Shown: positions 44,669-46,983 of the stretch, piece after piece
How positions within the stretch are numbered: position 1 is the first letter of the stretch
Layout: each line of letters begins with the position of its first letter
NCBI GenBank assembly: GCA_001028815.1
Contig: LDJB01000001.1
Span: forward strand, 639,634-703,633
Direction of reading: 5' to 3'
Length of the DNA: 64,000 nucleotides
Source: Peptococcaceae bacterium 1109
Lineage (GTDB): Bacteria; Bacillota; Limnochordia; Darwinibacteriales; Darwinibacteriaceae
Position numbers and translations under genes: made by a program
The notes under the pieces: generated by a model
Told to the model about the DNA's origin: nothing
Seen by the model: only the letters and a program-made list of their open reading frames with translations
Databases searched by the model: none

Positions 44669-45297
44669 GGCACTACCACAAGGAGTATACCTGTGGAGCA
44701 CGCTATTTCTATGCTCTCTGAGACAGTTTTATTACTGATGCCCAAGGTTGAGCCCTTGTGCAGGGAAGCGTTGCACAAGGGGTAGTACAAGCCCTTGGTA
44801 GTGACGCCATCGCACCTTTCGGAAAGGGGAATAAGAGAGACTGTCTTCCCCACTCCTGACGTAAGGGCGAGCTTGCCCGTAAGGGTCATCAGGCGGGCAT
44901 TTCCAGTGAGGATTTCCCCTGTGATGCCCTCCTGGGCAAGGCGGTACAACAGATCCAAGTTTGCCAGGGAATGGTCGAGGCGGTTTCCCCACACTCCCAC
45001 CATGGTAATATGGGTAACGCCTCGCGCGAGGGCCGCGTCGATTGCCAGCTCGCCATCGGTTTTATCCTTCTCTACTGGGAAGCGCAAGAACTCCACGCTG
45101 TGTTCTCGGCACCAGGCCTCCACATCTCCCGTGGATGAATCGAGGTCCCCTACCACTAGATGGGGCATGATGCCCCACCTTTGCGCATGCTGCAGACCGC
45201 CATCTGCGCAGATCACTATGGATTGGGACACTTCCGGCGCCTTGTCCGGGATATCCTCCCCTGCGCCGATAATCAAGGCCTTATTGGCCAGGTTCAA
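44659..45297 (-). CDS. thiN: Thiamine pyrophosphokinase ThiN
   Basis: 212 residues from TTG 45297, 7 bases after AAGGAGG. Motifs ICADGGLQHAQRWGI, VVGDLDSSTGDV and HITMVGVWGNRLDHSLANL are typical. Converts thiamine to TPP with ATP. Overlaps the end of thiT by 17 bases, so uptake and activation are co-translated under one TPP riboswitch. Confidence 0.96.
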   Translation of the reverse strand: MNLANKALIIGAGEDIPDKAPEVSQSIVICADGGLQHAQRWGIMPHLVVGDLDSSTGDVEAWCREHSVEFLRFPVEKDKTDGELAIDAALARGVTHITMVGVWGNRLDHSLANLDLLYRLAQEGITGEILTGNARLMTLTGKLALTSGVGKTVSLIPLSERCDGVTTKGLYYPLCNASLHKGSTLGISNKTVSESIEIACSTGILLVVVPKK

Positions 45298-45799
45298 AAA
45301 TATCCCTCCTTACCCTCAAGAGGTACAGGATTGCCCCAACCAAGACCGCCTCCGGCAAGAGGTACGACCCGTTGTAGAGCAGTGAGTACAAAAGAACAGG
45401 GGTCCCCTCTGGGGCATAGTCAGCGAAGAACACTACTCCTGAAATCACATGTACCATGTACCGCGAGATCGTACCCACTGTTACTCCTGTTAGGATATCC
45501 TTTTTGAAAAACCCGGCTATCCCTAGTACCGCAAAGGGAATTGGATAGTCCAAGAGAACTTGGACGGGATGGACGAAAAAGGGGTCGGTGATCAGCTTCA
45601 ACAGCCCGTAGAGCAAACCTCCCACCAAGCCTACTTTTCCTCCCCGGCGAAAGGCTAGTAGGAAGATGGGCAGCATGTCCAAGCCAATGGAGCCCCCTTG
45701 GGGCAACCTAATTAGGCGGATCATGGACAGTGCCAAGGCTGCCCCCACCAACACTGCGGTCTCCACCATGATGACAATGTCTGTGCTTTGCTTTCTCAT
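45281..45799 (-). CDS. thiT: Thiamine transporter substrate-binding component ThiT (ECF family)
   Basis: Start at ATG 45799 (MRKQSTDIVIMVETA), with GGGAGG upstream and just after the riboswitch terminator; 172 residues. About six membrane helices. Family motif residues are seen in SIGLDMLPIFLLAFRRGGKVG and YTPDPFF-like ITDPFFVHPVQVLLDYP, where ThiT binds thiamine. Works with a shared ECF module (EcfA, A', T) encoded elsewhere. Confidence 0.93.
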   Translation of the reverse strand: MRKQSTDIVIMVETAVLVGAALALSMIRLIRLPQGGSIGLDMLPIFLLAFRRGGKVGLVGGLLYGLLKLITDPFFVHPVQVLLDYPIPFAVLGIAGFFKKDILTGVTVGTISRYMVHVISGVVFFADYAPEGTPVLLYSLLYNGSYLLPEAVLVGAILYLLRVRRDIFEPGQ

Positions 45800-45814
45800 A
45801 GGATCCCCTCCCAC

Positions 45815-45945
45815 AAAAAATGGCTGTGGAAACAAGTTCCACAGCCTGCAAAAGCCATCCGCTTCCCTACGCTGGCATTACCCAACAGGTTCAAAGGGTC
45901 AGGACTCAACCTATCTCAGCCTTACGGCACCCCTAGCGGAACTCG
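45815..45945 (-). promoter_or_regulatory. TPP riboswitch with terminator expression platform
   Basis: Minus strand shows the THI-box core: GGGGTGCC, GGCTGAGATA, CCCTTTGAACCTG and TAATGCCAGCGTAGGGAAG, closed by TCCGC/GCGGA (aptamer about 45859-45945). A 10-bp hairpin GGCTGTGGAA/TTCCACAGCC with TTTTTT (45815-45846) follows, directly before the thiT ribosome binding site. TPP binding is expected to favour termination and shut off thiT-thiN. Confidence 0.97.
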
Positions 45946-46000: not shown

Positions 46001-46028
46001 GAAAAATCGGCACCCGAGAGGGGTGCCG
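46001..46028 (-). terminator. Rho-independent terminator of the orphan RNA
   Basis: CGGCACCC and GGGTGCCG arms around a short loop followed by ATTTTTC on the minus strand. Confidence 0.85.
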
Positions 46029-46250
46029 GGAGGTGCAGCGGCGGGAGGCCGTCGTTCAGATAGCTCATCACAAGGGGAAAAGGGTTTTAGGTAGTTACTT
46101 GTTACGCGCCCAAGGGAGTCGTTTTTATTTTTGATCGAGATTGTTTGCCTGAGATCACAAGGTACTTACATCCCGAGTGCAGTCAAGACCTAAACACGCA
46201 AGGAACTTCGCCTATCGCCCCCCTTCTATGTAGACTTGCCTCCCGCCTGT
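46001..46250 (-). ncRNA. Orphan structured RNA, 6S-like candidate
   Basis: A 250-base stretch without an ORF has its own promoter and terminator. The predicted 5' end begins near 46248 and carries GGCGGGAGGC (46238-46247), which pairs perfectly with GCCTCCCGCC (46040-46049) to close the molecule. Further nested pairs (AAGGGG with CCCCTT, GTTTAGGT with ACCTAAA, CTTG with CAAG) give a long rod with bulges. It ends at the hairpin CGGCACCC/GGGTGCCG plus ATTTTTC (46001-46028). About 200 nt between closing arms, rod shape and autonomy resemble 6S RNA, which binds RNA polymerase, but I cannot confirm the family by sequence alone. SRP RNA, RNase P RNA and tmRNA signatures are absent. Confidence 0.65.
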
Positions 46251-46254
46251 CTTA

Positions 46255-46283
46255 AGTATAGGCAAAATTGTCAGACTTGTCAA
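46255..46283 (-). promoter_or_regulatory. Strong sigma-A promoter of the orphan RNA
   Basis: TTGACA (46278-46283), 17-base spacer, TATACT (46255-46260), downstream of the rpe terminator; nothing but the structured RNA lies behind it. Confidence 0.9.
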
Positions 46284-46314: not shown

Positions 46315-46340
46315 TTAAAAAAGGGGAGGTTACTCCCCTT
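46315..46340 (-). terminator. Rho-independent terminator after rpe
   Basis: AAGGGGAG/CTCCCCTT stem then TTTTTT. The rpe stop codon TAA is in the loop. It ends the long rlmN-to-rpe operon. Confidence 0.9.
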
Positions 46341-46983
46341 GGGTGCGCATGGTGTTGATGTAAGCCTCTGGATCGGCGCTTTTGAAGATGGCTGAGCCTG
46401 CCACTAAAATGTCTACGCCCGCTTCCACCAGTTCTCGGGCGTTGGCACTGGTCACTCCCCCATCCACCTGAATCTTGATAGGATATCCTTGACAGAGCTC
46501 CCGGCAGGCACGAATCTTATCGAGCATGGCAGGGATGAAAGGCTGGCCGCCGTAGCCTGGGTTGACGGTCATGATAAGGACCAGGTCCAAATCTGCCAGT
46601 ATGTATTCTAAACCTGTGAGGGGCGTGTGGGGGTTTAGGGCTACCCCAGCCCCTACCCCTAGCTCCCGGATATAGCTCAAGGTTCGCTGGAGGTGGGTGA
46701 CGGCCTCATAGTGGACGGTGATGTACGCAGGTTTGAGTTCGGCAAAACTAGGAATAAACCGATCCGGTTCTTCCACCATGAGGTGGACATCGAGGGGGAT
46801 ACTCGAGGCGCGCTTCACTGCTTGGGCAACAGGCATCCCATAGCTTATATTCGGCACAAAGTGGCCGTCCATCACATCAAAGTGGATGAGGTCTGCCCCC
46901 TTCACCCGGGCGAGTTCCTCTCCCAAGCGGGCAAGATCCGCTGACAGAATTGAGGGTGCAATCAAAGGCCTGATCTTTTCCAC
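46330..46983 (-). CDS. rpe: Ribulose-phosphate 3-epimerase
   Basis: 217 residues, TIM barrel. Motifs LIHFDVMDGHFVPNISYG, VHLMVEEPDRFI, MTVNPGYGGQPFIP and IQVDGGVTSANARELVEAG hold the metal and acid/base residues. Pentose phosphate pathway. Follows rsgA by 11 bases. Confidence 0.97.
   Translation of the reverse strand: MEKIRPLIAPSILSADLARLGEELARVKGADLIHFDVMDGHFVPNISYGMPVAQAVKRASSIPLDVHLMVEEPDRFIPSFAELKPAYITVHYEAVTHLQRTLSYIRELGVGAGVALNPHTPLTGLEYILADLDLVLIMTVNPGYGGQPFIPAMLDKIRACRELCQGYPIKIQVDGGVTSANARELVEAGVDILVAGSAIFKSADPEAYINTMRTQGE

Follow-up and report, generated by a model that had tools for sequence, protein, structure and literature searches.

A small RNA gene in the rpe–thiT gap of an uncultured two-membrane Firmicute carries a seed that co-varies with mRNA leaders

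Several small RNAs of Gram-positive bacteria that carry a UCCC motif, namely LhrC of Listeria, RsaE and RNAIII of Staphylococcus and FsrA of Bacillus, direct an unpaired C-rich seed against ribosome-binding-site regions of their target mRNAs, envelope genes among them (PMC4132741). In synthetic STAR systems, a trans-acting RNA pairs with a target before a gene and touches the intrinsic-terminator hairpin there in its 5′ half, prevention of the terminator being the proposed effect (PMC5648800). The pT181 attenuator of Staphylococcus involves an antisense RNA that acts on a terminator hairpin which also hides the ribosome-binding site (PMC5435934). A review from 2019 covered the control of target termination by sRNAs for Rho-dependent cases only (PMC6582626).

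We analyzed a stretch of 64,000 nucleotides from Peptococcaceae bacterium 1109 (the window, to which the positions in Table 1 refer). The rpe–thiT gap of this uncultured two-membrane Firmicute contains a small non-coding RNA gene, which very probably specifies a trans-acting antisense sRNA regulating several genes by base pairing, as judged from sequence comparison. The original prediction had placed a closed, non-coding transcription unit here without stating the strand, and such a unit is indeed present on the minus strand. Its promoter TTGACA-N17-TATACT (46283-46255) matches the consensus in 11 of 12 positions, and no ORF of at least 60 amino acids was found on the minus strand within the unit. 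An own promoter and terminator and the lack of an ORF are features expected of a trans-encoded sRNA gene. Promoter-like sites were found at 3 per 600 bp compared to 0.2 expected.

Table 1. Features of the sRNA gene and its surroundings in the window.
Feature	Position	Strand	Remark
Whole unit, promoter to terminator	46283-46002	minus	
sRNA	46002..46249	minus	about 240 nt; ends deduced from the -10 box (5′) and the U-run (3′)
-35 hexamer and conserved spacer TTGACAAGTCTGACAATTT	46265..46283	minus	near-invariant in 18 family members (up to 3 mismatches over the promoter pattern) and 26 aligned members
-10 hexamer TATACT	46255..46260	minus	
Closing stem, 5′ arm GGCGGGAGGC	46238..46247	minus	covaries in relatives
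Conserved G-rich element GAAGGGGGGCGATAG	46212..46226	minus	from the alignment
A-rich stretch preceding the seed (relatives: GATYACC..AAAAAAAT)	46119..46139	minus	mostly unpaired in the prediction
Seed CTCCCTTGGGCGC	46106..46118	minus	most conserved part of the RNA; complementary to mRNA leaders
Closing stem, 3′ arm GCCTCCCGCC	46040..46049	minus	
Intrinsic terminator CGGCACCCCTCTCGGGTGCCGATTTTTCTTG	46002..46028 (stem 46028-46008)	minus	
Second promoter	46000-45972		between sRNA terminator and TPP aptamer
rpe	46330..46983	minus	conserved upstream neighbor
TPP riboswitch of thiT	45847..45944	minus	conserved downstream neighbor, separate transcription unit
thiT	45281..45808	minus	conserved downstream neighbor

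With up to 3 mismatches allowed over the first 19 bases, the source genome (G000) contains a single match to promoter plus spacer (TTGACAAGTCTGACAATTTNNNNTAT), and most family members also have this sequence at up to 3 mismatches. The near-invariance of the spacer suggests that it is probably the site of a dedicated transcription factor, which would control the sRNA promoter. Operators of the Spo0A, CodY or OmpR type were compared with the spacer by eye and did not fit. Across the order the spacer reads TTGACAWRTCWGAHAATT with hardly any change, and in the own family it contains a TGACAA repeat 9 bp apart. As a separate observation, thiT of several relatives (L045 and others) is preceded by an apparent sigma-H-like promoter AGGAnTT-N12-GAAT between the sRNA terminator and the TPP riboswitch, where the thiT promoter in the window is of the sigma-A type.

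The minus strand of the unit folds with -82.4 kcal/mol (z = -1.9 versus shuffles), a value to be read with caution since folding of a single sequence is weak evidence. The plus strand was unremarkable (z = -0.45), and a reading on that strand was dropped. The pairing between the 5′ and 3′ ends that had been foreseen was found to be perfect (closing stem in Table 1), and RNAalifold recovered this stem unaided from an alignment built without structure information. Among the orthologues of relatives, both sides had changed in 9 of the 13 closing-stem pairs, and none of 500 shuffles reached the covariation score. Over the whole structure, 90.8% of the cells were paired, compared to 31-41% with the partners slid. 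As comparison is stronger than a single-sequence fold, covariation and orthologues settle that this is an independent structured RNA gene. Its interior varies in length and sequence, apart from an A-rich stretch that follows GATYACC and the CUCCCU(U)GGGC block, in which conservation is highest. The seed in this block has a predicted unpaired probability of only 44%, a point against an antisense role, and may pair with the conserved G-rich element; a core GGUA–UACC helix is weakly supported by covariation.

Of the 37 genomes of the order, 32 carry an orthologue: 22 of 23 from the own family, 9 of 9 from a second family and 1 of 1 from a third. These orthologues were found with model R1, which spans promoter and core and was needed since a plain DNA search found only 6 of 61 relatives. 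The GTDB-wide scan and this model gave no orthologue in the order's two further families and no credible one in the rest of the class. Hits of R1 in G065 and G042 covered the promoter only and were regarded as chance, and many GTDB matches to the promoter pattern were ordinary promoters lacking the core. The gene order prkC-rsgA-rpe-RNA gene-TPP-thiT-thiN-rpmB is constant wherever the contig is long enough. The carriers belong to the Bacillota and are uncultured; most of them come from anaerobic digesters. One is labelled Limnochordia, a class for which an outer membrane has been described (PMC11456536).

Each genome contains one copy of the gene, except for G003 with three in tandem (L106; G003:C65:4600-6900). 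The two upstream copies of G003 have kept the promoter, the closing stem and (U/C)UCCCUGAGC and are missing the GATYACC/A-rich part. Within genus g11, the block CCGUCUCCCUUGG occurs twice, about 150 nt apart, in or near one RNA gene (L189, L192; G033:C7:21034, 21188).

Possible targets were searched for with the seed complement GCGCCCAAGGGAG in four genomes having the UU form of the seed. Outside the sRNA gene, five exact sites were present in the four genomes, compared to about 0.3 expected according to our own estimate from base frequency alone, and all five are located directly upstream of a start codon. When one mismatch was allowed, 16 non-self sites were found, 10 of them just upstream of a start codon. 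The genes concerned encode a secreted protein of 415 amino acids, a patatin-like phospholipase (PF01734), a lipoprotein, a ComEA-like helix-hairpin-helix protein and RadC, and in all targets the site precedes the ribosome-binding site by 5-10 nt. The patatin site was restricted to G000, G001 and G005 and absent in genera g4 and g9, and is thus a lineage-specific target. In genus g11 the RNA reads CCGUCUCCCUUGGG, and a homologous gene pair in G029 and G031 has the exact complement CCCAAGGGAGACGG in front of the start. An excess of TGCCCAGGGAG in g4 genomes (67 versus 8 for the reversed pattern) was set aside as evidence and put down to codon bias, since most of the matches lie in coding frames.

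We regard the gene for the 415-residue protein (G000:C1:395653-396897, with uncertain assignment of the start codon) as the main target; orthologues are present in 26 genomes of the order. The protein showed no match in Pfam and no relative in the PDB. All 21 orthologues compared have a hydrophobic start and a C-terminal F or W. Outer-membrane beta-barrels end in F or W. From these features we infer that the main target is probably a secreted outer-membrane protein and a candidate for a new family.

A C-rich UCCC seed and targets of the envelope relate this RNA to LhrC, RsaE, RNAIII and FsrA, and the three tandem copies in G003 recall the multicopy LhrC (PMC4132741). In contrast to those sRNAs, with which it shares neither sequence nor Rfam relation, its seed is longer and includes GGGC, the leader of its main target is a terminator-like hairpin, and it has been kept vertically at one locus.

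According to prediction, the main target's leader folds into a hairpin with two stems, an outer one of 9 bp and an inner one containing the ribosome-binding site, which are separated by a one-sided bulge; a U-run comes after the hairpin. This hairpin covaries: 7 of 20 pairs had changed on both sides, and none of 500 shuffles scored as high. The sRNA site coincides with the bulge, beside the 5′ arm, and from there reaches into that arm, as with CGCG in G000, or into the inner stem, as in G034, G035 and G025; in G016, G020 and others it overlaps the outer stem by 1-2 nt only. With the site blocked, the hairpin lost 6 to 24 kcal/mol of its predicted stability, mostly about 6 in genera g4 and g9.

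In the model towards which we lean, the sRNA activates the main target by opening this hairpin. The leader would fold into a terminator-like hairpin with its U-run around the ribosome-binding site, the seed would pair with the bulge and part of the 5′ arm or inner stem, and the hairpin thus weakened would let transcription and translation proceed. Activation is favored because the site overlaps a terminator-like hairpin burying the ribosome-binding site and because the leaders of patatin and radC are similar, an inverted repeat recognized by eye enclosing both the site and the ribosome-binding site. Against this model, the site overlaps the stem only slightly in g4 and g9. The predicted accessibility of the ribosome-binding site did not rise on binding (on average 0.22 before and 0.19 after), which argues either for anti-termination or against activation.

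Alternatively, the trans-acting sRNA might repress its targets, binding of the seed a short way upstream of the ribosome-binding site blocking entry of the 30S subunit or triggering cleavage by an RNase. The C-rich UCCC seeds of LhrC, RNAIII, RsaE and FsrA work in this way (PMC4132741), the distance of the sites from the ribosome-binding sites in all targets would suit a repressor, and in most folds with a blocked site the ribosome-binding site stays unfreed. We nevertheless find repression somewhat doubtful. A ribosome-binding site already buried in a covarying U-run hairpin leaves little for a repressor to do, and the outer 5′ arm or inner stem that the site overlaps would be opened by pairing; the arrangement of the patatin and radC leaders, alike by eye, points in the same direction.

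The main target resembles that of a STAR: a trans-encoded RNA has a target site before the gene body and contacts the 5′ half of a terminator hairpin with a U-run. STARs, however, are of synthetic origin and recognize a linear stretch ahead of the hairpin as well as its 5′ half (PMC5648800), whereas the sRNA would contact mainly an internal bulge, the hairpin also holds the ribosome-binding site, and activation is a proposal. With pT181 the system has in common an antisense RNA on a terminator hairpin that conceals the ribosome-binding site, but the pT181 RNA is cis-encoded and plasmid-borne and promotes termination. Hfq is a common partner of sRNAs in enterobacteria and not a defining one in Firmicutes. 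No Hfq was detected with the Pfam model PF17209 in the source genome assembly, which is 96.75% complete.

Evidence for base pairing came from the parallel changes of seed and leader. In the 22 genomes in which both the leader of the main target and the RNA were readable, UCCCUUGGGC RNAs face GCCCAAGGGA leaders and UCCCUGGGC RNAs face GCCCAGGGA leaders without exception. Expressed as indel classes, the seed reads CCCUUGGG or CCCUGGG and the leader CCCAAGGG or CCCAGGG, the two classes agreeing in these 22 of 22 genomes. On the Rpe tree, two changes of the seed and two of the leader fell in the same places and both independent indels were mirrored, although a tree-based sign test has no power with only two such events. 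Watson-Crick runs between cognate partners had a mean length of 12.0 nt (9-18), compared to 7.1 nt for pairs of different class; for the rest of the sRNA the averages were 5.9 and 5.8 nt. Lineage-specific changes extend the match in G034, where the RNA now reads CUAUUUCCC and the leader GGGAAAUAG (UUUCCC / GGGAAA), giving a perfect match of 18 nt, and in G035, where lineage-specific flanks match over 16 nt. In genera g4 and g9 complementarity is limited to 9-12 nt. The same compensated indel is found in the lipoprotein leaders of G005 (AA) and G019 (A), whose proteins are 39% identical, and in the radC leaders of G005 and G001 (AA) compared to G011 (A). A conserved seed, complementarity to leaders and compensatory change, the marks of a trans-encoded sRNA, thus occur together. 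Comparison between genomes establishes the gene, its structure, the seed of 9-13 nt, the complementarity and the co-variation, and from these we infer that the sRNA is transcribed and pairs with its targets in the cell.

The shared 10-13 bp could also represent a DNA operator, that is, the site of a transcription factor in the RNA gene and in the target promoters in place of an RNA-RNA contact. A changing factor could likewise keep all its sites alike, and the promoter of the RNA gene bears another conserved element. Several observations make this explanation very improbable. The motif has opposite orientations and lies about 140 nt into the RNA gene compared to near the 5′ end of the targets, and sites bound by proteins seldom carry an indel at their center. 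Furthermore, in G034 and G035 the sRNA and the leader share their lineage-specific flanks, and the sRNA gene encodes a covarying RNA with a terminator. The radC site is located between two genes of an operon and is therefore more plausibly active on RNA than on DNA.

The independent structured RNA that had been predicted was borne out, whereas its tentative assignment as 6S RNA was not. Many Firmicutes possess two 6S RNAs, and size, rod-like outline and long closing stem would suit 6S RNA or a second 6S paralogue. Yet we give this identity next to no weight: the locus showed no match to RF00013 even at E ≤ 10, a canonical 6S gene is present elsewhere in the genome (G000:C1:241512-241695; RF00013, 82.2 bits with a gathering score of 46.4), and a C-rich conserved seed with complementary targets is foreign to 6S. 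No Rfam 15 family exceeded its gathering threshold at the sRNA, and at E ≤ 10 the only hits were two chance matches on the other strand. When 17 loci with orthologues were compared with Rfam 15, only the neighboring TPP riboswitch was matched, and T-box-like and other Rfam identities were ruled out in the same way as 6S. Since conservation is concentrated in one short block complementary to mRNA leaders, the RNA is regarded as an antisense sRNA and not as a promoter mimic. The sRNA, whose target architecture is unusual, is a new family of a known kind, the trans-encoded base-pairing sRNAs, and in this sense the new class that had been considered possible does exist. A cis-regulatory thiT leader, a riboswitch or attenuator in tandem with the TPP riboswitch, can be dismissed almost with certainty: the sRNA is constantly located upstream of TPP-thiT, but it has its own terminator, a separate promoter precedes the TPP aptamer, as expected from the earlier statement that it is not a leader, and the complementarity conserved is to unlinked genes.

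As a trans-encoded base-pairing sRNA, the RNA might be a natural counterpart of STARs, a chromosomal, order-wide sRNA that switches on the gene of a probable outer-membrane protein by invading an intrinsic terminator that hides the ribosome-binding site, without Hfq; we put this forward tentatively. If the activation model is true, it would provide a natural case of a trans-acting RNA working on an intrinsic terminator hairpin. A text search of the literature returned no paper naming both sRNA and Limnochordia. The results add a multi-target sRNA family, its pairing proven by comparison, from an uncultured, deep-branching lineage of two-membrane Firmicutes. As in enterobacteria, the control of envelope proteins in these ancestral-like diderms would be tied to sRNAs, here apparently without Hfq.
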